From contig NZ_VIRL01000005.1 in NCBI RefSeq assembly GCF_006874465.1, positions 62,001-126,000 of the forward strand: a stretch of DNA of 64,000 nt, in the 5' to 3' direction. The position numbers and the translations under genes were made by a program. Below are positions 4,625 through 29,653 of the stretch, piece by piece; positions within the stretch are counted from its first letter, which is position 1, and each line of letters opens with the position of its first letter. The notes beneath the pieces were generated by a model. The model searched no databases. It was given only the letters and a program-made list of their open reading frames with translations, and was not told the origin of the DNA. The DNA comes from Microbispora bryophytorum. Lineage in GTDB: Bacteria; Actinomycetota; Actinomycetes; Streptosporangiales; Streptosporangiaceae.

Positions 4625-6025
4625 ATGTCCTCCCCACAGTCAGAGGCGCCCGGCGTCGAGCGCTTCGGTTACCAGCAGGAGCTGCGGCGCTCGCTCGGCT
4701 TCGCCGACCTGCTCATCTACGGTTTGATCTTCATGGTGCCGATCGCGCCGTTCGGCATCTTCGGCAGCGTCTTCCAGTCGTCCGGCGGGATGGTGGCGCT
4801 CGCCTACGTCATCGGCATGGTCGCGATGGCGTTCACCGCCCTGTCGTACGCCCAGATGGCCCGCGCGTTCCCGATGGCGGGCTCGGTCTACACCTACGCC
4901 GGCCGGGGCATCGCCGCCCCGGTCGGCTTCCTCGCCGGCTGGGTGATCCTGCTCGACTACGTGCTCGTGCCGTCGCTGCTGTACCTCGTGGCGAGCGCGG
5001 CCATGACGTCGTTCGTGCCCGGCGTGCCGATCTGGGTGTGGCTGATCGCCTTCATCGTGCTCAACACGGTGGTCAACTACCTCGGCATCGAGATGACCGC
5101 CCGGATGAACAAGATCATGCTGGTCGCCGAGCTGATCGTGCTGGCGATCTTCCTGGTCGTCGGGGCCGTCGCCCTGGCGCAGGGCAAGGGCCACGGCGCC
5201 GCGCTCAGCCCGCTGTTCGACTCCTCCACGTTCTCCTGGCCGCTGGCGTTCGGGGCCGTGTCCGTGGCGGTGCTGTCCTTCCTCGGGTTCGACGGCATCT
5301 CGATGCTCGCCGAGGAGAGCCGCGAGAGCAGCCGCCGGCTCGGCCGCTCGATGGTCTTCGCCCTCGCCCTGGCCGGCGCGCTGTTCGTCGTGCAGACCTG
5401 GGTGGCGGCGCTGCTCGCCCCCAACCGCGCCGACCTGCTCACGAAGGGCGACCCGGCCGGCACCGCGTTCTACGACACCGCGGAGTACGCCGGAGGCCAC
5501 TGGCTGAGCGTGCTCACGGCCGTCGCGACCGCCGTGGCCTGGGGGTTCGCGAACTCGCTGGTCGCCCAGGCGGCCACCTCCCGCCTGCTGTTCGCGATGG
5601 CCCGCGACCGCCAGCTCCCGGCGTTCCTCGGCAAGGTGCACCCCAAGCACAGGGTGCCGGTCAACGCGACGTTCCTGGTGGCCGGGGTGTCCCTGGTCCT
5701 CGGCCTCTACATGAGCTCGCGCGACGACGGCATCACGCTGCTCGGCACGCTGGTCAACTTCGGCGCGATGACCGCGTTCCTCGCCCTGCACGTCTCGGTC
5801 GTTGTCCACTATGTCGTCCGCAACCGCAGCCGTGACTGGTGGCGGCACCTCGTGGCCCCCGCGATCGGCTTCCTGATCCTGCTCTACGTCGTGATCAACG
5901 CCAGCATCGCCGCCCAGGTGCTCGGTTTCGTCTGGCTGGCCATCGGCGTCGTGATCCTCGCCGGCTCCTACATGATGGGCCGGCGCCCCACCCTGTCCGC
6001 CGTCACCCCGGAGGCCAACGAGTGA
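4625..6025 (+). CDS. APC-family amino acid/amide permease
   Basis: A 466-aa integral membrane protein with about 12 predicted helices. It begins LRRSLGFADLLIYGLIFMVP and has the APC helix-1 signature PIAPFGIFG, then ARAFPMAGSVYTYAGRGI. It imports an amino acid, amine or small amide; the setting between an amide sensor and an acetamidase suggests an amide or urea-like substrate (inference). ATG 4625 is preceded by AGGAG. The stop overlaps the GTG of the amidase gene (GTGA), so the two are translationally coupled. Confidence 0.9.
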   Translation: MSSPQSEAPGVERFGYQQELRRSLGFADLLIYGLIFMVPIAPFGIFGSVFQSSGGMVALAYVIGMVAMAFTALSYAQMARAFPMAGSVYTYAGRGIAAPVGFLAGWVILLDYVLVPSLLYLVASAAMTSFVPGVPIWVWLIAFIVLNTVVNYLGIEMTARMNKIMLVAELIVLAIFLVVGAVALAQGKGHGAALSPLFDSSTFSWPLAFGAVSVAVLSFLGFDGISMLAEESRESSRRLGRSMVFALALAGALFVVQTWVAALLAPNRADLLTKGDPAGTAFYDTAEYAGGHWLSVLTAVATAVAWGFANSLVAQAATSRLLFAMARDRQLPAFLGKVHPKHRVPVNATFLVAGVSLVLGLYMSSRDDGITLLGTLVNFGAMTAFLALHVSVVVHYVVRNRSRDWWRHLVAPAIGFLILLYVVINASIAAQVLGFVWLAIGVVILAGSYMMGRRPTLSAVTPEANE

Positions 6026-7029
6026 ACGTCGTGTCCTACCGTCCCCGCCCCGACGACCTGTCGTACACCTTCGGCGGCCGCCCGGCCGTCGAGTCCGTCG
6101 CCCCCGGAGCGGTGCTGGAGCTGTACACCGAGGACTGCTTCGGCGGCCGGGTGCGCGGCATCGCAGACCTGCCGTCGCAGGTCTGCGAGTTCCCCTATCT
6201 GAATCCGGTCACCGGCCCGTTCCACGTCGAGGGGGCCGAGCCCGGCGACACCCTGGCCCTCCACTTCGTCTCCATCGAGCCCGCCCGCGACTGGGCGGTC
6301 TCCACGACGTTCCCGCACTTCGGGGCGCTGACGAGCACGCACACCACCCCGACGCTGCAGCCCCCGCTGGAGGAGGCCGTGTGGATGTACGAGGTGGACG
6401 CCGGGCGGCGGACCGTGCGTTACCGGGCCCGGCGCGGCGACTTCGCCGTCGAGATGCCGCTCGACCCGATGCACGGGACCGTGGGCGTCGCCCCGGCCGC
6501 CGCCGAGGCGCGGATGACCATCACGCCGGACGCCCACGGCGGCAACATGGACACCCCCGAGCTGCGGGCCGGGGTCACGGTCTACCTGGGCGTCAACGTT
6601 CCCGGCGCGCTGTTCGCGATCGGCGACGGCCACTGCCGCCAGGGCCACGGCGAGGTCTGCGGCACCGCCGTCGAGGCGGCGATGAACACCGTCGTGGCCG
6701 TCGAGCTGATCAAGGGCGTCGCCACGCCGTGGCCGCGGCTGGAGGACGACCGCCACATCATGTCGACCGGCTCGGCCCGGCCGCTGGAGGACGCCTACCG
6801 CATCAGCCAGCACGACCTCGTCACCTGGGCCGCCTCCCTCACCGGCCTCGACGAGCTGGACGCCTACCAGCTCGTCAGCCAGGGCGGACAGGCTCCGGTC
6901 GGCAATGTCTGCGACACCAACTACACGATGGTGGCCAAGCTGCCCAAGGCGTACCTGGGCGACCCGGACGTGTACGGCTCCGCGCACGCCCGCCTGCGCG
7001 CCCTCGGCGAGGAGTACCTCAGCCGTTGA
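6022..7029 (+). CDS. Acetamidase/formamidase family hydrolase
   Basis: A 335-aa member of the FmdA/AmdA family, which hydrolyses formamide or acetamide to the acid and ammonia. Family features are ELYTEDCFGG near the N-terminus, PLDPMHGTVGVAP, DAHGGNMDTPEL (metal-binding region) and GDGHCRQGHGEVCGTAVE. The GTG start overlaps the permease stop. With the sensor and permease it forms an amide-utilisation unit that supplies nitrogen. Residues expected to bind zinc in the family (the D/H-rich segments above) look intact. Confidence 0.9.
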   Translation: MNVVSYRPRPDDLSYTFGGRPAVESVAPGAVLELYTEDCFGGRVRGIADLPSQVCEFPYLNPVTGPFHVEGAEPGDTLALHFVSIEPARDWAVSTTFPHFGALTSTHTTPTLQPPLEEAVWMYEVDAGRRTVRYRARRGDFAVEMPLDPMHGTVGVAPAAAEARMTITPDAHGGNMDTPELRAGVTVYLGVNVPGALFAIGDGHCRQGHGEVCGTAVEAAMNTVVAVELIKGVATPWPRLEDDRHIMSTGSARPLEDAYRISQHDLVTWAASLTGLDELDAYQLVSQGGQAPVGNVCDTNYTMVAKLPKAYLGDPDVYGSAHARLRALGEEYLSR

Positions 7030-7041
7030 GGAACGCCCGGC

Positions 7042-7647
7042 TCAGAGCCAGCCGTTGTGGCGGGCGACCCGGACGGCCTCCATGCGGTTGCGGGTGCCGG
7101 TCTTGGTGATGCACGCCGACAGGTGGTTGCGTACGGTGCTCTCCGACAGAAAGAGACGGCGGGAGATGTCGCCGGCGGCGGAGCCGTCGGCGGCGGCGGT
7201 GAGCACCTCACGCTCCCGCGGCGTCAGCGGGTTCGGCCCGGCGCTCAAAGCGGCCGTGGCCAGGGCGGGATCGACCACGATCTCGCCCGCGAGCACGCGC
7301 CTGATCGCCTGGGCCAGCTCGCCGACGGGCCGGTCCTTGACCACGAAACCGCGGGCGCCCGCGTCCAGCGCCCGGCGGAGGTAACCGGGCCGTCCGAACG
7401 TCGTGACGATGACCACCACGCACTCCGGGAGGGCGGCCCGCAGGTCCGCGGTCGCGTCGAGCCCGCTGCCGCCGGGCAGCTCGATGTCGAGCAGGGCCAC
7501 GTCTGGCTTGACCCGCAAGGCGGTGGGAACGATCTCGCCCGCCGTCGCGACCTGCGCGACGACCTCGAAGTCGTCCTCCAGGTCGAGCAGCACGGTGAGC
7601 GCGTCGCGCATCATCGTCTGGTCCTCGGCGATCAGCACGCGGGTCAC
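7042..7647 (-). CDS. NarL/LuxR-family response regulator
   Basis: A 201-aa two-domain regulator. The receiver has the acidic pair ED at residues 8-9, the phospho-acceptor D54 in ALLDIELPGGSG and the conserved K in FVVKDRP. The C-terminal LuxR helix-turn-helix starts at LTPREREVL. The GTG start overlaps the stop of the kinase gene (GTGA), so the pair is translationally coupled. The target genes are unknown; the resemblance is to DesR/YdfI-type regulators. Confidence 0.93.
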   Translation of the reverse strand: MTRVLIAEDQTMMRDALTVLLDLEDDFEVVAQVATAGEIVPTALRVKPDVALLDIELPGGSGLDATADLRAALPECVVVIVTTFGRPGYLRRALDAGARGFVVKDRPVGELAQAIRRVLAGEIVVDPALATAALSAGPNPLTPREREVLTAAADGSAAGDISRRLFLSESTVRNHLSACITKTGTRNRMEAVRVARHNGWL

Positions 7648-8870
7648 AGGCCGTCCTCTCCGTCGTCGTCCACGCCCGCGTGCGGGATCTCGGCGGTGAG
7701 GACGAACCCCTGCGGCAGGCGGGCGGCGGTCAGCCGCCCGCCCGCGGCGGCCAGGCGCTCGCGCAGCCCGCGCAGGCCGCTGCCGTCCTCCTCGCCGGCG
7801 GCGCCGCCCGCGCCGTCGTCACCAGGGCCGTCGTCGGTGATCTCGACCAGGACCGGGTCGCGGTCGCGGCGCAGCGTGATGACGCAGCGCCGGGCGCCGG
7901 AGTGCCGCACGACGTTCGTGATCCCTTCCCGCACGACCCAGCTCAGCAGCATGTCGGTCTCCCGCGACAGCGCCGGCCCCGACTCCTTCACCACGCAGTC
8001 GACGCCGGCCGTGGCCAGGGCCGCCCGTGCGCTGTCGAGCTCGAAGGCGAGGCTCGCGTCCCGGTAACCCGTGACCGCCTCGCGCACCTCGGTCAGCGCC
8101 TGCCGTCCGATGGCCTCGATGTCCGCGGCGTGCCGCATGGCCGCCTCCGTGTCGCGCGGGGCCAGCCGCCGCACGGCCTCGGCCTTGACCACCACCATCG
8201 AGAGCGTGTGGCCGAGCAGGTCGTGCAGGTCGCGGGAGAAGCGCAGGCGCTCGGCCGAGACGGCGGCGACGGCGAGCTTCTCCCGGGTCCGGCCGAGTTC
8301 CTCGATCACCTCGGCCATCCGGCGGAAGCCGTACGTCGTGATCCCGGCGAGGAAGGTGGTCAGCGCGGCGCCCCACAGCGCCTCGCCGAACGAGCCGTCG
8401 TGCACCGGGACGATCGCGGCCAGCGCGGCCGTGACGGCGATGAGCGGCGGCGCGGACCGAACCCGGAGCACGAGCGCCACGGCCACGGCGAGCAGGGAGA
8501 ACAGCGTCTGCCACCCGTTCGTCCGGTAGGCCAGGGACGCCGTGATCGTCACCGCCGCGAGCAGCGCGACGAAGGCTACGGGCAGGGGCCGCACGGCGGG
8601 GCGGGCCAGGTGAGCGGTCACCACGGCCCCCACGAACGACAACCCCGCGGCGGCCACCAGGGTCAAGGCGGGCCAGGAGGGATCCGCCGACACCGCGACG
8701 GCGCCCGGCGCCAGCAGCAGGAGGACGGTCAGCCCGAGCGCGGGGGCGAGCAACCGGGCCGGCACCCGTGCGGGGAGCCGAATGGGCAGCCGGGGCCGGA
8801 AACGGCCCGGCCGGGCGTCCCCGGGCCCGCACTCCTCCGCCCACGCCGCCGCCTCTGTCATGACCGTCAT
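7644..8870 (-). CDS. NarL-type sensor histidine kinase
   Basis: A 408-aa kinase with several hydrophobic N-terminal segments (about residues 45-170), then the HisKA_3 dimerisation box FSRDLHDLLGHTLSMVVVKA with the phospho-His, and a HATPase domain (VREGITNVVRHSGA, TDDGPG, GLRGLRERL). It lacks a large extracellular sensor and probably senses membrane state or a signal within the bilayer. ATG 8870 has GGAGG nine bases upstream and is preferred to ATG 8861. The partner regulator follows directly. Confidence 0.92.
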   Translation of the reverse strand: MTVMTEAAAWAEECGPGDARPGRFRPRLPIRLPARVPARLLAPALGLTVLLLLAPGAVAVSADPSWPALTLVAAAGLSFVGAVVTAHLARPAVRPLPVAFVALLAAVTITASLAYRTNGWQTLFSLLAVAVALVLRVRSAPPLIAVTAALAAIVPVHDGSFGEALWGAALTTFLAGITTYGFRRMAEVIEELGRTREKLAVAAVSAERLRFSRDLHDLLGHTLSMVVVKAEAVRRLAPRDTEAAMRHAADIEAIGRQALTEVREAVTGYRDASLAFELDSARAALATAGVDCVVKESGPALSRETDMLLSWVVREGITNVVRHSGARRCVITLRRDRDPVLVEITDDGPGDDGAGGAAGEEDGSGLRGLRERLAAAGGRLTAARLPQGFVLTAEIPHAGVDDDGEDGL

Positions 8871-9019
8871 TATCGTCTGCCTCCGGCCCAGGCGGGCAGG
8901 GCGGAATATCGCTTTCCTGGCAGTACGAATCACCCGGGTCTTCGGTCCCACGCGGCCGGGACCTCCGCACCTGGAGAAGTCGCCGGAGCGCGTCGCAGCC
9001 TGGCCTGGGGGTGCCTGCG

Positions 9020-16907: not shown

Positions 16908-16960
16908 ATCGATCAACGTTCGTTAAGATCGGCGGCGAACGTGAGAAACGGAGATCGCGG

Positions 16961-17764
16961 GTGAGCCGGGACGAGGAAGCGCTGAAGGCCATCGACTTCT
17001 CCACGCCGAGTGTGGCGCGGATCTACGACTGGTGGCTGGGCGGCAAGGACAACTTCGCGGTCGACAGGGCCGCCGCCGAGAAACTCCTCGAACTGGTCGG
17101 CCCCGACGGCCGCCTGGTGATCAGGCAGAACCGGGAGTTCCTCGGCCGCGCCGTCCGCTTCCTCAGCGAGTCGGGCATCCGGCAGTTCCTCGACCTCGGC
17201 ACCGGCATTCCCACGCGGGGCAACGTCCACGAGGTCGCCCACGAGATCGATCCCGAGGCGACCGTCGTCTACGTCGACAACGACCCGATCGTCGCCGCGC
17301 ACGGCCGGGCGCTGCTGACCGGCAGCGGCCGTACGGGCGTGGTGCAGGCCGACATGCGCGACCCGGACGCGATCGTCGAAAGCCCGATCACCACGGAGCT
17401 GATCGACTTCGCCGAGCCGGTGGCCGTGCTGCTCGTCGCCGTGCTGCACTTCGTGGACGACGACGACGCCGAGCGCGTCGTGGCCCACTTCCGCGAGCGC
17501 ATGGCCCCCGGCAGCTACCTCGTCATCTCCCACGGCACGCAGGGCCGCCTGAGCGAGGACACGATCACCGGGGCCCGGGCGGTGTACGAGAAGTCCACGG
17601 CCGCGCTGCGCGACCGCACGCCCGAGCACATCGCCCGGTTCTTCACGGGGTTCGAGCTGGTCGAGCCGGGGCTGGTCGACGTGGCCGACTGGCGCACCGA
17701 CGGCGGCTTCGTCGAGCACAGCAAGGGCGGCTACGTCCTCGGCGGCGTCGGCCGGCTGGCCTGA
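16961..17764 (+). CDS. SAM-dependent methyltransferase of the DUF574 (Methyltransf_19) family
   Basis: A 267-aa protein of an actinomycete-expanded family. It begins IDFSTPSVARIYDWWLGGKD with the invariant YDWWLGGKDNF motif and has LDLGTGIPTRGNVHEVA as the SAM-binding loop. Substrates of this family are unknown, though some members lie in secondary-metabolite clusters. The GTG start has GGAG eight bases upstream. Its 3' end overlaps the convergent OsmC gene by 34 bp. Confidence 0.88.
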   Translation: MSRDEEALKAIDFSTPSVARIYDWWLGGKDNFAVDRAAAEKLLELVGPDGRLVIRQNREFLGRAVRFLSESGIRQFLDLGTGIPTRGNVHEVAHEIDPEATVVYVDNDPIVAAHGRALLTGSGRTGVVQADMRDPDAIVESPITTELIDFAEPVAVLLVAVLHFVDDDDAERVVAHFRERMAPGSYLVISHGTQGRLSEDTITGARAVYEKSTAALRDRTPEHIARFFTGFELVEPGLVDVADWRTDGGFVEHSKGGYVLGGVGRLA

Positions 17765-18186
17765 CCGGCCCGCGGGCAGGCTTCCTGGCGGACCTCGAAC
17801 GTGACCCGCGGCGGAACCCGCAGCGTGGTGCAGACGGCGCAGTGCTCCAGGACCGACAGGAGCGAGGCGCGCAGCCCCGCGGGCAGGCCGGGGGCCTCCA
17901 CCGACAGCTCGATGGAGTCGATCCGTCCCGGGCAGACGCCCAGGTCGTAGCGCGCGGTCACGCCCACCCCGGCGGGCAACTGGCGCTGGCGCAGGTAGCG
18001 TTCGGCGCAGCAGGCGACGCCGGCGGCCACGCTGCCCACGAACAGCTCGGCCGGAGTGGGGCCGGTGTCGCTCCCGCCGACGTCCGCGGGCTGGTCGGCG
18101 CGGACCACGTGGCGCCGGACGCGGACGTCGAACCGGTCGGCTCCGTGCCAGGCGACCCGGATGACGCCGTCACGCGGCTCCCTCAT
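17731..18186 (-). CDS. OsmC-family protein
   Basis: A 151-aa OsmC/Ohr-fold protein. The family reduces organic hydroperoxides through two cysteines; here AAGVACCAERYL supplies the first and the C-terminal EHCAVCTTLRVP the second, both in the expected positions. GGSDTGPTPAELFVGSVAAG is the dimer-forming helix region. It is more like the general OsmC group than like Ohr. The last 34 bp overlap the end of the methyltransferase gene on the other strand. It is divergent from the heme-type kinase, with which it may share a stress theme. Confidence 0.85.
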   Translation of the reverse strand: MREPRDGVIRVAWHGADRFDVRVRRHVVRADQPADVGGSDTGPTPAELFVGSVAAGVACCAERYLRQRQLPAGVGVTARYDLGVCPGRIDSIELSVEAPGLPAGLRASLLSVLEHCAVCTTLRVPPRVTFEVRQEACPRAGQASRPTPPRT

Positions 18187-18362
18187 GGCGCACCCCCGCG
18201 TCCATTGGGCTCTATCCGAGTATGTCCGTCGCCGACGGCGGATGAGCGCATACGGACCGTAAGAAGCCGGTCGTGACCTGACAAAGACCAGGAGCCCGCG
18301 GTGCCCCGGTTTGCGAGACTCCAACTGTGGGGGCGTGCGTGGCGCCGACGGGGGAGCGGACC

Positions 18363-20042
18363 ATGATCCCGCAGACGCACCTGGACGGGCTGCTGGCCGA
18401 ACTGCACACGAGGCTGCAGGCGGTCCTGTCGACGCGTGACCGGGTCCACGCGTTGCTGGAGGCGGTTGTCTCGGTGGGCGGCGACCTCGATCTGGAGACC
18501 GTGCTGCGCCGGATCGTCGAGACCGCCGCCAAGCTGGTCGACGCCAGATACGGCGCGCTCGGCGTGATCGGGGAGGACAACACCCTCGCCCGCTTCGTCC
18601 CGGTGGGGATGAGCGAGGAGGAGATCGCCGGGATCGAGCACTGGCCGCACGGCCTGGGCCTGCTCGGGCTGCTGATCAAGGAACCCCGGCCCCTGCGGCT
18701 GCCCCGCATCTGCGACCACCCCGAGTCGTACGGCTTCCCGTCCGGCCACCCCCCGATGGCGGCCCTGCTCGGCGTGCCCGTACGGGTCCGGGGTCAGGTG
18801 TTCGGCAACCTCTACCTGACGGAAAAGCGCGGGGGAGGGGAGTTCGACGAGGACGACGAGGCGATCGTCGTGGCCCTCGCCAGCGCCGCCGGGGTGGCCA
18901 TCGAGAACGCCCGCCTGTACGAGGACACCCGCCGCAGGGAGACCTGGCTGCAGGCGTCGGCGGAGATCACCAGGAGCCTGCTGTCCGGCGCCGAGACGCC
19001 GCGGGTGCTGACGCTGATCGCCCGCCGTGCCCGGCGGATGGCCGGCGCGGACACGGTGGCGATCCTGCTGCCGGAGGACGGCGGCCGGACGCTGCGGATC
19101 GCGATCGCGGACGGCATGCCCGGCCCTGCCCGAGGGCGCCGGCTGCCCGTCGAGGACTCGCTGGCCGGGGAGGCGTTCGCCTGCGCGAAGCCCCGCGTGG
19201 TCACCGACGTGGGCGACACCGACCTGCGTACGGCGGCCGGGGAGACGGGAGCGGTGTGCGCCGTGCCGCTGGGGGGCCCGGGAGCGGTGCGCGGGGTGTT
19301 GTCGCTGGGCAGGCGGCCCGGCCGCGTCCCGTTCAGCCGCGCGGAGGTGTGCATGGTCCACTCCTTCGCCGGGCACGCGGCCGTCGCGCTCGAACTGGAC
19401 GAGGCGCGCAGGGACGCCGAGCGGCTCGGCCTGCTGGAGGACCGCGACCGCATCGCCAAGGACCTGCACGACGTGGTCATCCAGCGGCTGTTCGCCGTCG
19501 CGATGACGCTGACGGGCGCCGCGCGGCTCGTGGAGCATCCGGAGGCGGCCGCGCGGCTGCGGACCGCGATCGACGAACTCGACGGCACGATCCGGCAGAT
19601 CCGCTCCACGATCTTCGCACTGCGGACCCCGGCCGGCGCCCCCGGGCTGCGCGCCCGGCTCGTCGAGCTGGTCGAGGGCGCGCGGCGGCCCCTCGGTTTC
19701 ATGCCGGCCCTGTGCATGGACGGGCAGCTCGACACCCGTGTGCCCGCCCCGGTCGGGGAGCACCTGCTGGCCGTGGCGCGGGAGGCGATCTCCAACGTGG
19801 TGCGGCACGCGCACGCCACCCGCGCCGGCGTCACCGTGCGCCTGGAGGAGGACCGGCTGACGCTGCTCGTGGAGGACGACGGGGTCGGCATCCCGGTGGG
19901 GGGACGGCGCAGCGGCCTGCGCAACCTGAGCGACCGCGCCGAGGGCCTGGGCGGGTCGTGCGCCGCCGAGGCCCTCGCCTGCGGAGGAACGCGCCTGTGC
20001 TGGAGCGTCCCGCTGCCGCAGCGCCATGAGGAGACGCTGTGA
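18363..20042 (+). CDS. DevS/DosT-like GAF sensor histidine kinase with conserved heme-ligand positions
   Basis: A 559-aa soluble kinase: GAF-A (about 30-195), GAF-B (about 210-345), HisKA_3 with the phospho-His near residue 369 (RIAKDLHDVVIQRLFAV), and a HATPase domain (REAISNVVRHAHA, EDDGVGIP, GLRNLSDRAEGLGG). In GAF-A, GHPPM (His about 129) and LYLTEK (Tyr about 151) are 22 residues apart, the same spacing as the heme-ligating His149 and distal Tyr171 of Mycobacterium DevS. A heme-based O2/NO/CO or redox sensor is therefore likely. ATG 18363 has GGGGAG six bases upstream. No response regulator is adjacent; a universal stress protein follows 40 bp later. Confidence 0.9.
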   Translation: MIPQTHLDGLLAELHTRLQAVLSTRDRVHALLEAVVSVGGDLDLETVLRRIVETAAKLVDARYGALGVIGEDNTLARFVPVGMSEEEIAGIEHWPHGLGLLGLLIKEPRPLRLPRICDHPESYGFPSGHPPMAALLGVPVRVRGQVFGNLYLTEKRGGGEFDEDDEAIVVALASAAGVAIENARLYEDTRRRETWLQASAEITRSLLSGAETPRVLTLIARRARRMAGADTVAILLPEDGGRTLRIAIADGMPGPARGRRLPVEDSLAGEAFACAKPRVVTDVGDTDLRTAAGETGAVCAVPLGGPGAVRGVLSLGRRPGRVPFSRAEVCMVHSFAGHAAVALELDEARRDAERLGLLEDRDRIAKDLHDVVIQRLFAVAMTLTGAARLVEHPEAAARLRTAIDELDGTIRQIRSTIFALRTPAGAPGLRARLVELVEGARRPLGFMPALCMDGQLDTRVPAPVGEHLLAVAREAISNVVRHAHATRAGVTVRLEEDRLTLLVEDDGVGIPVGGRRSGLRNLSDRAEGLGGSCAAEALACGGTRLCWSVPLPQRHEETL

Positions 20043-20082: not shown

Positions 20083-21000
20083 ATGACCGAGCCGTTCAGT
20101 GCCCCGGTCGCCGATCCGGGCGCCGATCCGGTCGTCGTCGGCACCGACGGGTCTACGGGAGCGACCCGGGCGGTGGAGTGGGCGGCCGACCACGCCGGCC
20201 TGCGGGGCCTGCCCCTGCGGGTGGTCCACGCCGTCGAGCGCCTGCCCTACGACGTCCCGTGCTATCCCATCCCCGACAGCTACGACAGGCTGGCGCCCTC
20301 GGGCCGGCAGATCCTCGATCATGCCGAGCGGGTCGCCCGGGACCGGCGGCCCGGCCTCGACGTGACGACGGAGCCGGCCGAGGGGCGTCCCGGCCGGGTC
20401 CTGCGCGACCAGGCCGCCCGCGCCGCCGAGGTGGTGCTCGGCAGCCACGGTGCGGGCGGCTTCCCCGGCATGCTGCTCGGATCGGTGGGCAACCACGTCG
20501 CCGGGCACGTGGCCGTGCCGGTCGTCGTCGTCCGGCCGGCGCCCCCGGAGGCGGTGGCCGAGATCGCGGTGGGGTTCGACTGCTCGGAGGCGTCCGGGCC
20601 CGCCCTGGCGTACGCGTTCGAGGAGGCGCGGCTGCGCGGCCACCGGGTGCGGATCGTCTGCGCCTGGGAGCCGCCGGTGCCGTACGCACCCGTGATCGCC
20701 GGGGACCCGGACGACATGCAGCGGGCCGCGGAGGACTACGCGCGCACCGAGCTGCAGCCGTGGCAGGGCGGGAACACCGAGGTCAAGACCGAGCTGGACA
20801 TGGTCCGCGGCCATCCGGTCGCCGCGCTCATCGAGGCCTCGTCCCGGGCCGTCATGCTCGTCGTCGGCTCCCACGGGCGCAACGCCTTCACCGCGGCCGT
20901 GCTCGGCTCGGTGAGCCGCGCCGTGCTCGCCCACGCGCACTGCCCGGTGGCCGTGGTGAGGGGGGGTGCGGTCGTGAGGGGAGGCGGCAGGGGGCGGTGA
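20083..21000 (+). CDS. Tandem-domain universal stress protein
   Basis: A 305-aa protein with two UspA domains (about 15-150 and 160-295). Each has the ATP-binding G-x2-G-x9-GS pattern: GSHGAGGFPGMLLGS and GSHGRNAFTAAVLGS. Double-domain ATP-binding Usps are typical of DosR-regulated genes in mycobacteria. It follows the sensor kinase on the same strand and is probably in its operon. The C-terminus is a short glycine/arginine-rich tail. Confidence 0.9.
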   Translation: MTEPFSAPVADPGADPVVVGTDGSTGATRAVEWAADHAGLRGLPLRVVHAVERLPYDVPCYPIPDSYDRLAPSGRQILDHAERVARDRRPGLDVTTEPAEGRPGRVLRDQAARAAEVVLGSHGAGGFPGMLLGSVGNHVAGHVAVPVVVVRPAPPEAVAEIAVGFDCSEASGPALAYAFEEARLRGHRVRIVCAWEPPVPYAPVIAGDPDDMQRAAEDYARTELQPWQGGNTEVKTELDMVRGHPVAALIEASSRAVMLVVGSHGRNAFTAAVLGSVSRAVLAHAHCPVAVVRGGAVVRGGGRGR

Positions 21001-21001
21001 G

Positions 21002-21562
21002 TCACCCGAGGAGGCGGGCCGGCCGCACTCCCGGGACCGTCCGCTCCAGCAGGTCGGCCACGTGCCCGGGGCCCTGACCCTCGGGACCCCGCAGGTCGAT
21101 CTCGCCGTCGCGCACGAGGACCTCCCAGGACGCATCGGAGGGGTAGCGCTCGCGCAGGGCGGCCAGGACGGCCTCGCGCAGCTCGTCGTCCGACCTGGCC
21201 AGCAGCGCCATGAGGTCGCGGCGGCTGACCATCCCGACGACCCGCTCGTCGCGCAGCACCGGCACGCTCTTGACCCTCTTCGTGATCATGAGGTCGGTCA
21301 GCACCCGCGCGTCGGTGGTGTCCTCGACGGAGCTCACCTGGCGCGACATGACGTCTCCCACGGCGCGGGGCGCCGAGACGCCCGGCGTGAACGCGCCGCA
21401 CAGCAGGTCGATCTCGCTGACCATCCCGACCAGTTCGCCGTGCTCCCCGAGCACGGGGGCGGCCGTGATGTCGTGGTCGTACAGCACCCGGATCGCCCGC
21501 CGCACGGAGTCGTCGCGGCGCAGGGTGATCGCCGGGCTGCGCATGACCTCACCGGCCAGCAT
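21002..21562 (-). CDS. CBS-domain pair protein with C-terminal BON domain
   Basis: A 186-aa soluble protein. Two CBS motifs (GEVMRSPAITLRRDDSVRRA to VSEIDLL, and GDVMSRQVSSVEDT to VSRRDLMALLA) are followed by a BON domain (DELREAVLAALRERYPSDAS onward). CBS pairs bind adenylates and report on energy state; BON domains bind membranes or ligands. ATG 21562 is chosen because AAGGTGG precedes it; ATG 21607, also with a ribosome-binding-like GGTGGA, would add 15 residues. It converges on the USP gene with a 1-bp gap and is divergent from another CBS gene. Confidence 0.87.
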   Translation of the reverse strand: MLAGEVMRSPAITLRRDDSVRRAIRVLYDHDITAAPVLGEHGELVGMVSEIDLLCGAFTPGVSAPRAVGDVMSRQVSSVEDTTDARVLTDLMITKRVKSVPVLRDERVVGMVSRRDLMALLARSDDELREAVLAALRERYPSDASWEVLVRDGEIDLRGPEGQGPGHVADLLERTVPGVRPARLLG

Positions 21563-21646: not shown

Positions 21647-21682
21647 GTGCCGGAGGTCCCCGGCGGTGGGGTCTTTGGGCCC
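21647..21682. promoter_or_regulatory. Pair of DosR-box-like sequences between divergent CBS genes
   Basis: GGGTCTTTGGGCCC (21669-21682) fits the DosR-box core GGGnCnnnnGnCCC at all nine fixed positions and has the central CTTT. A weaker copy, GTGCCGGAGGTCCC (21647-21660), matches eight of nine and lies exactly 22 bp upstream, two helical turns. Mycobacterial DosR promoters often carry two such boxes. They lie about 100 bp before the plus-strand CBS gene and about 85 bp before the minus-strand one. Confidence 0.5.
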
Positions 21683-21783: not shown

Positions 21784-22290
21784 ATGACCGTAGAAGCCAT
21801 GACCGCCGCCGACGTGATGAGCAGAGTGCTCGTGACGGTGAAGCCGGACGAGTCGCCGCTCATGGCGTGGGAACTCATGCGCCGCGGATCGATGCATCAC
21901 CTGCCCGTGGTGGATTCCGGTTCCCGCATCATCGGCGTGCTCACGCGCGAGGACATCGCGGCCCACTGGTCGGGCGGGCCGGCGGAGCAGTCCAGCAGCC
22001 AGGTGCGCCAGTTGCTGACCGGGCGCAGATGCCCGCATGTGCCGCCCGACGCGTCGCTCCCCGCCGTCGCGGCCGTCATGCTGGAGTCGGGGGTGGACGT
22101 CGTCCCGGTCATCGGGGCCTCCGGCACCCTGCAGGGTCTCGTCACCGTGACCGACGTGCTCGTGGCGGTCGCGGGCAGGCGGGGGGCCGCGTCTGCGCAC
22201 GAGGAGGTGCCGGCCGGGATGTTCCGCCTTGAGCCGGTGCTGCCGCCCAAGCCCTCCCGGACCGCCGAGGACCAGCGGCAGGGGCCGTGA
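21784..22290 (+). CDS. CBS-domain pair protein
   Basis: A 168-aa protein consisting of one CBS pair (MTAADVMSRVLVTVKPDESP to LTREDIAAHW; PDASLPAVAAVMLES to VTVTDVLVAV) and a short tail without a recognised domain. It probably senses adenine nucleotides. ATG 21784 is preceded by GGGGAGGAACG, a strong ribosome-binding site. It is divergent from the CBS-BON gene across a region carrying paired DosR-box-like sequences. Confidence 0.87.
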   Translation: MTVEAMTAADVMSRVLVTVKPDESPLMAWELMRRGSMHHLPVVDSGSRIIGVLTREDIAAHWSGGPAEQSSSQVRQLLTGRRCPHVPPDASLPAVAAVMLESGVDVVPVIGASGTLQGLVTVTDVLVAVAGRRGAASAHEEVPAGMFRLEPVLPPKPSRTAEDQRQGP

Positions 22291-28691: not shown

Positions 28692-28783
28692 CTGCGGCGT
28701 GGGCGGCGGACACGGTGCGATGGTGGCCGGGAGCGCCGACCCCCGCGCGTTCCCGTGCCCGCCGAGCACAGGAGGAGAATTAC

Positions 28784-29653
28784 ATGGCCGGACAGATCGT
28801 GGCCGCCGTCGACGGATCGAAGCCGGCGACGGCGGCGCTGGAGTGGGCGGCGGACGACGCGCGGCGCCGGGGGGCCGCCCTGAGGATCGTCCACGTGCGA
28901 GAGGCGTGGGCGCACGAATACCCGTTCCATGCCGTCGAAGGCTTCGCCCAGTCCTACAGCGAGTTCTGCGAGGGCGTGCTCGCGGCGGCGGCCGCCCGCG
29001 CCCGCGAGATCGCCCCCGGCCTGGAGACGACCACGGAGCTCGTCGAGGGGACGGTCGTCGAGACCCTGCGCGCCCGGTCGGCCGATGCCGACGCCCTCGT
29101 GGTCGGCAGCCGGGGAATGGGCGGCTTCTCCGGCCTGCTCCTGGGCTCCGTCGGCCTCGGCCTGGCCGGTCACGCGCAGGTCCCTGTCGTGGTAGTGCGC
29201 AAACCGCACCGGGACGACTACCACGAGGTCGTGGTCGGCTTCGACGGATCACCTCATTCGGAGGCGGCTCTGCAGTTCGCCTTCGAGGAGGCCCGGACGC
29301 GGCACGGGCGGGTGCACGCGGTCTACGCCTGGGAGATGCCGACGTTCTCGCCCTTCGCGGTCGGCTACGGGACGGCACTCCAGGAGGTGTTCGACAACGA
29401 GCGCCGGGCGGCGCGGCTGCGGCTCGCGCCGTGGCGCGACAAGCACCCGGACGTCCCGCTCGTCGAGTCGGCGGTCTGCGGCCACCCGGTCCCGGCGCTG
29501 GCCGACGCCTCGCTCGTCGCCGACCTCGTGGTCGTCGGGTCGCGGGGGCTGGGCGGCGTGCGCGGCGCGCTGATCGGCTCGGTCGGTCACGCCGTGCTGC
29601 ACCGCGCGCACTGCCCCGTCGCGGTCGTACGGCCCCGCGACGGCGAGCACTGA
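28784..29653 (+). CDS. Tandem-domain universal stress protein
   Basis: A 289-aa protein with two UspA domains; the ATP motifs are GSRGMGGFSGLLLGS and GSRGLGGVRGALIGS. It is related to the USP at 20.1 kb but better conserved in the first domain. ATG 28784 follows a perfect GGAGGAG. It lies between arabinan genes without an obvious functional link to them; DosR-box-like sequences upstream suggest that it belongs to the stress group. Confidence 0.92.
   Translation: MAGQIVAAVDGSKPATAALEWAADDARRRGAALRIVHVREAWAHEYPFHAVEGFAQSYSEFCEGVLAAAAARAREIAPGLETTTELVEGTVVETLRARSADADALVVGSRGMGGFSGLLLGSVGLGLAGHAQVPVVVVRKPHRDDYHEVVVGFDGSPHSEAALQFAFEEARTRHGRVHAVYAWEMPTFSPFAVGYGTALQEVFDNERRAARLRLAPWRDKHPDVPLVESAVCGHPVPALADASLVADLVVVGSRGLGGVRGALIGSVGHAVLHRAHCPVAVVRPRDGEH

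Follow-up and report, generated by a model that had tools for sequence, protein, structure and literature searches.

The gene at positions 18363..20042 (+) of the window, the whole stretch of 64,000 nucleotides from Microbispora bryophytorum that was analysed here (contig NZ_VIRL01000005.1, positions 62,001 to 126,000), encodes what is, judged by its sequence, a member of the known DosS/DosT-OsdK family of sensor histidine kinases that has become detached from a regulator. We consider it probable that the product is a DosT-type haem kinase which shares a remote DevR with a paralogue on contig C30 of the same genome, and that DevR would act on paired boxes at stress promoters, including the promoter region between the divergent genes CBS1 and CBS2. 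This proposal draws on homology, residue identities, copy numbers, synteny and a conserved box pair. The system itself is known in kind, from mycobacteria under the name DosS/DosT-DosR and from Streptomyces under the name OsdKR; what is new is that the second sensor is detached and that the paired-box promoter of the CBS genes is conserved. A search of the open-licence literature found nothing on the window kinase gene among the papers listed, no publication joining Microbispora with DosR, and none treating Hrp1, Rv2626c, CBS domains and DosR together.

Domain layout and GAF-A residues of the kinase

The reading frame of the window kinase is intact; it begins with an ATG at 18363, encodes 559 amino acids and has its stop ending at 20042. 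A domain search revealed the order GAF, GAF, HisKA_3 and HATPase_c, which is the DosS/DosT layout, with GAF-A at about residues 41-188, GAF-B at about 214-344, HisKA_3 at 361-423 and the HATPase extending to about 551. Among solved structures, the DosT haem domain (2vzw) was the top match of GAF-A with an E-value of 7.3e-49, followed by the DevS entries 2y8h, 2y79, 4ynr and 2w3d, and the alignment to these haem domains spanned 147-149 residues with zero gaps. GAF-B matched the structure entry 2vjw, and the C-terminal part of the kinase also matched the kinase-domain entries 3zxq (DosT) and 3zxo (DevS). None of the NCBIfam models claimed the window kinase; its matches to MadS, NarX and others were far under the cut-offs.

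A preliminary description of this DNA had placed the motifs GHPPM and LYLTEK, 22 residues apart, in a haem pocket and had drawn from them a kinship with DevS, and the comparison bears out both points. According to a review (PMC4082495), His149 of DosS and His147 of DosT bind the haem iron, and Tyr171 and Tyr169 are the respective distal tyrosines. The gap-free alignment superimposed His129 of GHPPM (codon 18747..18749, +) on the His of the DosT/DevS HPPM motif and Tyr151 of LYLTEK (codon 18813..18815, +) on the Tyr of LYLT(D/E)K. To these can be added Gly67 (codon 18561..18563, +), at the position of DosS Glu87 and DosT Gly85 and hence DosT-like, and His369 (codon 19467..19469, +), the predicted phospho-acceptor in the motif DLHD. 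All four residues were identical in every row of an alignment of 46 kinases, even in the Chloroflexota outgroup, which has an identity of 34%. The alignment consisted of 44 of the 52 returned database loci together with the window and C30 kinases; the eight loci outside it were L051 (kinase frame broken), L041 (stop in the stretch), L036 (partial) and L069-L073 (distant). Because His129 and Tyr151 are invariant in these 46 kinases, the likeness of GAF-A to DosT and DevS is, at the sequence level, homology over 147-149 residues and no chance motif.

The window kinase and DosT/DosS thus have the domain order, the His ligand, the distal Tyr and the phospho-His in common, as well as the presence of several kinases per DevR-type regulator; they differ in that the window kinase is unlinked to devR and has a mixed set of discriminating residues. 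In particular, at the seven positions named in the review as discriminating DosS from DosT, the window kinase was DosT-like at three (G67, G70 and N149), DosS-like at one (L98) and like neither at three (I69, R77 and I88). The same review states that Gly or Ala at the DosS Glu87 position was reported to permit a stable oxy complex, and calls the point disputed. As a control, we compared a GAF kinase on contig C49 of the own genome (43% identical), which has a proximal-type His yet Phe at the Tyr position; the distal Tyr therefore distinguishes the group better than the His does. This C49 kinase (L013:10002-11219) contains a single GAF and a HisKA_3 domain, and adjoins a NarL-type regulator (G000, the own genome, C49:327397-328005). 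Its signal may be a different one.

It is distinctly improbable that GAF-A of the window kinase has kept the fold and residues and senses something else, such as the redox state, another gas or another ligand, or that GAF-B, as the most diverged domain, sets the signal. Such a change would agree with the low identity of GAF-B to its C30 paralogue (just 55%), with the three discriminating positions that match neither DosS nor DosT, and with Leu at position 135, where 44 of the 46 aligned kinases have Phe; the strict invariance of His129, Tyr151 and Gly67 argues against it. We therefore retain a haem sensor of DosT type, in which His129 would be the proximal ligand and Tyr151 would face the bound gas. 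By analogy with DosS and DosT, the kinase would be off in the presence of O2 and would be switched on after loss of O2 or by NO or CO.

The unlinked kinase and the remote DevR

Three copies of the kinase were found in the own genome, a circumstance on which the preliminary description was silent: the window copy, a full-length copy on C30 (L009:14310-15986; 70-71% identical to the window kinase) and a partial copy on C61. The partial copy (L011:12170-13588) covers residues 51-449 only, without the N-terminus and the ATPase domain, and in a by-eye comparison it resembled the C30 copy far more than the window copy. The nearest relatives of the window kinase all belong to Microbispora, with 93% identity in M. 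catharanthi and 88% in M. hainanensis and M. rosea. A tree built by a quick method, with SH-aLRT support only and with a Chloroflexota metagenome-assembled genome (L067, kept in the alignment) as the outgroup, placed the window kinase in a Microbispora-only clade of four rows (SH-aLRT 100), separate from the clade that contains the C30 kinase. Among 15 Microbispora genomes, the own genome included, a kinase of the family (E-value 1e-100) was present in all, and an orthologue of the window kinase in 13. Orthologues were called by an identity of 79-93% outside the own genome (two matches being partial) and by CBS2 downstream, which was found in all 13. The loci L022, L023, L024, L036 and L051 were judged to be the same as genomes G002, G004, G007, G012 and G014; in L051 (M. 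triticiradicis, 6001-7640) the frame of the orthologous kinase is broken in the assembly, either truly or by sequencing error. With one sensor copy detached from the regulator in 13 of 15 genomes, the genus lends itself to the questions of why several haem sensors per regulator are kept in actinobacteria and what role GAF-B has.

No response regulator adjoins the window kinase within the window, as the preliminary description had noted in placing the partner elsewhere or regarding it as shared. The sole NarL-type regulator of the window lies about 11 kb off (7042-7647, -), abuts a HisKA_3 kinase of its own and shares only 36% identity with a DevR-type query, for which reason the pair at 7042-8951 was dropped as a partner. 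The query, the regulator beside a Sphaerimonospora kinase (L035), was searched against the own genome and revealed one DevR-like match at 91% identity, C43:171048-171683, on another contig than the window kinase. Compared with solved structures, the C43 regulator matched M. tuberculosis DevR (3c3w) first, with an E-value of 5.8e-80, and VraR next (9e-44); its NCBIfam match to MadR was far under the cut-off. The stretch EKTVKNYVS, which we take to be the recognition helix, is identical in the two DevR proteins. The neighbours of devR on C43 are a pyridoxamine-oxidase-like gene and a protein-kinase-like gene, and boxes were located nearby at L078:16002 (score 12.4) and L078:16719 (score 9.7).

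Separation of kinase and regulator was also observed in other genomes. A DevR-like gene was present within the fetched flanks, some of which end at contig ends, of 21 of the 47 kinase loci L022-L068, with a partial one in the flank of L030, and none was found in the fetched flanks of the five orthologous loci L022, L023, L024, L036 and L051 (for L036, the downstream side only). Within the stretches covered, neither the window kinase nor these five orthologues therefore has the kinase next to its regulator as in the OsdKR-type operon. Two single-contig genomes illustrate the arrangement: in G009 the two kinases, at 6.18 and 6.51 Mb, are both more than 4 Mb from the only DevR found (E-values up to 1e-70), which is at 2.03 Mb, and in G013 each of two kinase copies, one of which was read in two pieces, abuts a DevR and the orthologue of the window kinase stands alone. 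At an E-value of 1e-70, DevR was detected in 14 of the 15 Microbispora genomes, with one copy in nine; in G007 it was met in four pieces, of which three lie at contig ends. OsdK of S. coelicolor is, according to PMC5069765, 41-42% identical to DevS/DosT, and the OsdK/OsdR system (SCO0203/SCO0204) would resemble that of Microbispora in its palindromic box and usp-rich regulon; it differs in that osdR and osdK form an operon, whereas the window kinase is alone and its putative regulator lies on another contig.

Comparison of the window and C30 kinases by domain revealed identities of 100% in the DHp core (residues 349-383), 87% in DHp, 84% in GAF-A, 65% in CA and 55% in GAF-B. The DHp core is also 100% identical (as a rounded mean) to eight other canonical Microbispora copies; of these, L029 and L062 adjoin a DevR, and L030 adjoins a DevR fragment at a contig end. 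The identical DHp core beside a GAF-B of only 55% therefore suggests a shared regulator: the surface expected to meet the regulator appears to have been conserved while the second sensor domain drifted. An arrangement like that of M. tuberculosis, in which two sensors feed a single regulator, would fit the window and C30 kinases, which otherwise differ in tree clade and in the box, CBS-BON and nitroreductase setting of the C30 copy. Phosphate would pass from His369 to the single DevR orthologue, which would also serve the C30 kinase.

Alternatively, the window kinase may be a DosT-type haem sensor with another NarL-type partner; DevR would then act on the boxes between CBS1 and CBS2 in response to the C30 kinase only. 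The own genome offers candidates, as 57 other matches to the DevR query span both the receiver and the DNA-binding domain, although all are at most 44% identical; over a length of 62 residues, matches limited to the DNA-binding domain reach 50%. For OsdK, PMC5069765 mentions a further cognate regulator; four of the 15 genomes carry two DevR copies rather than one; and in G008, which contains two kinases as well as the box pair, no DevR was found even in a looser search (best regulator 40%). These observations, together with the DevR-free flanks of the five orthologous loci, weigh against a shared DevR. We nevertheless regard a different partner as quite improbable in view of the DHp core, which is identical to that of the C30 copy and of copies that stand beside a DevR, and we continue with DevR as the common regulator.

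Candidate DevR boxes between CBS1 and CBS2

Two CBS proteins near the kinase had already been recorded in the preliminary description. They are the divergent CBS-pair proteins CBS1 (21002..21562, -) and CBS2 (21784..22290, +), with each start set at a conserved ATG. DevR boxes were searched with the OsdR 16-mer, which has the core GGGMCNNNNGKCCC, and with a matrix made from 25 Streptomyces OsdR sites, both from PMC5069765. The region between CBS1 and CBS2 contains two candidate boxes, to which no strand is assigned, at 21647..21660 (GTGCCGGAGGTCCC) and 21669..21682 (GGGTCTTTGGGCCC); each has one mismatch to the core, and the second follows exactly 22 bp after the first.

A pair with the same spacing was present in all six orthologous loci first compared, the window included. 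When the test was extended to the 13 genomes with an orthologue (the row of G012 being L036), the best 22-bp pair of the stretch read (4.6-7.3 kb) fell between CBS1 and CBS2 in every one of them, despite diverged surroundings. Over the 20 specified positions, the pair had one mismatch in three genomes, two in six and three in four; the exact core or a stronger version was found in L051, L036, G001 and G013. A 22-bp pair with at most two mismatches occurred at only seven places in the own genome, against 15 in the reversed control, and these were two USP (universal stress protein) promoters on C50, the CBS1/CBS2 region, two near-identical contig ends and two others. The CBS1/CBS2 pair is a candidate pair of DevR sites, conserved in place and spacing. 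PMC3029386 describes a precedent: at the divergent tgs1-Rv3131 promoter, two DevR sites act cooperatively. The copies at the contig ends (L081:415-450 on C45 and L084:1501-1536 on C56) precede near-identical genes without a Pfam match, the product of which looks membrane-bound; similar tandem pairs lie near contig starts in G002 (C7) and G011 (C10).

Sites scoring at least 12 over the kinase loci and the own-genome loci numbered 30 in coding and 25 in intergenic sequence, compared with 13 and 4 in the reversed control. One of them, a near-consensus box on C30 (L009:11722), had a score of 20.0, above every training site; the divergent CBS-BON genes on its two sides start 67 and 139 bp away. Exact cores were also found beside devR on C43 and upstream of the two USP genes on C50. 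Since the C30 kinase is located downstream of the strong box, it may itself be under DevR, provided that the intervening genes are co-transcribed with it. The cluster concerned (L009:10954-14253) comprises the CBS-BON genes on either side of the box, a gene that a weak Pfam match assigns to the nitroreductase family, and a gene for a protein of 213 aa with no Pfam match; the kinase follows. At a score of 9, the Streptomyces matrix gave two matches in the window, neither near the kinase, versus 13 in the reversed control, and a stringent single-box pattern gave 21 matches genome-wide versus 52 in the control; single boxes hence count by position only. Two exact cores in the window (16661 and 20339) lie inside coding sequence and were not counted as promoter boxes.

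Several observations speak against DevR control of the region, and they would be explained if the kinase, USP and CBS genes were conserved neighbours without common control, the paired boxes being bound by another regulator or unused. No box was found upstream of the window kinase or of USP1, the tandem universal stress protein gene that follows it. With the Streptomyces matrix, the two CBS1/CBS2 boxes reached scores of 7.5 and 3.3, under all training sites (minimum 11.4). Summed over 15 genomes, the tandem pattern had 140 matches versus 236 in the reversed control and thus no excess. The pair had been noticed before the test, and of the seven genomes among the 13 that were new to it, four had at most two mismatches and three had three. 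Only two of nine USP starts checked in the own genome have an exact core within 250 bp; two have one-mismatch cores (a pair 23 bp apart on C30 and a single one on C93), and five, both window USPs among them, are without any. As the reversed control exceeds the real count, it is the position of the pair and not its number that speaks for it: the same place and spacing recur in 13 of 13 genomes despite diverged surroundings, the core is exact or stronger in four of the loci and genomes, and the spacing of 22 bp returns at two USP promoters of the own genome and that of 23 bp at a third. We consider this alternative as a whole unlikely.

DevR action on paired boxes thus remains the preferred explanation, in a narrower form than was first supposed. 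The dormancy-like programme suggested in the preliminary description finds partial support in the candidate boxes at CBS1/CBS2 and, elsewhere, at some loci with USP genes, CBS-BON genes or the regulator; DevR control of the kinase and USP1 is not supported, because no box was found upstream of either, and the whole kinase-USP-CBS group as a single DevR regulon was dropped for this reason. Phosphorylated DevR would bind boxes at stress promoters, often in pairs 22-23 bp apart, its targets being the CBS1/CBS2 promoter beside the kinase and, elsewhere, some USP genes, the CBS-BON pair and the regulator's own region. The kinase promoter being without a box, the window kinase is perhaps made constantly; this would fit dosT, for which PMC4082495 reports a lack of induction in hypoxia.

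The constant 22-bp box pair provides a testable promoter rule beyond mycobacteria. CBS domains commonly bind adenylates. As a tentative idea, more doubtful than the mechanism itself, Microbispora may have a split hypoxia system: a second DosT-type sensor that is free of the regulator, and whose GAF-B has diverged, would have been retained together with the CBS1/CBS2 pair and its paired DevR boxes. The signals of two gas sensors, each with a different second input, could then converge on a single remote DevR, and the two CBS proteins might add energy charge to the dormancy response.

Neighbouring genes

USP1 (20083..21000, +), the tandem USP noted after the kinase in the preliminary description, indeed contains two Usp stretches; it begins 40 bp after the kinase gene and is probably co-transcribed with it. 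On the other side, an OsmC-like protein (17731..18324, -) is encoded divergently from the kinase and stands beside the kinase also in L022, L023, L024 and L051. Further downstream, the segment 22464-31091 holds genes for GH43, arabinofuranosidase C-terminal and GH30 proteins and a second tandem USP (28715-29653), at which no box was found. An open frame without a Pfam match at 16913-17719 (-) has a G+C fraction of 0.95 at codon position 1, and its true frame is uncertain; it was matched at 90-92% in L022 and L024. A box (score 12.0) in L022 is located 69 bp upstream of the counterpart of this frame and 72 bp upstream of a divergent gene.
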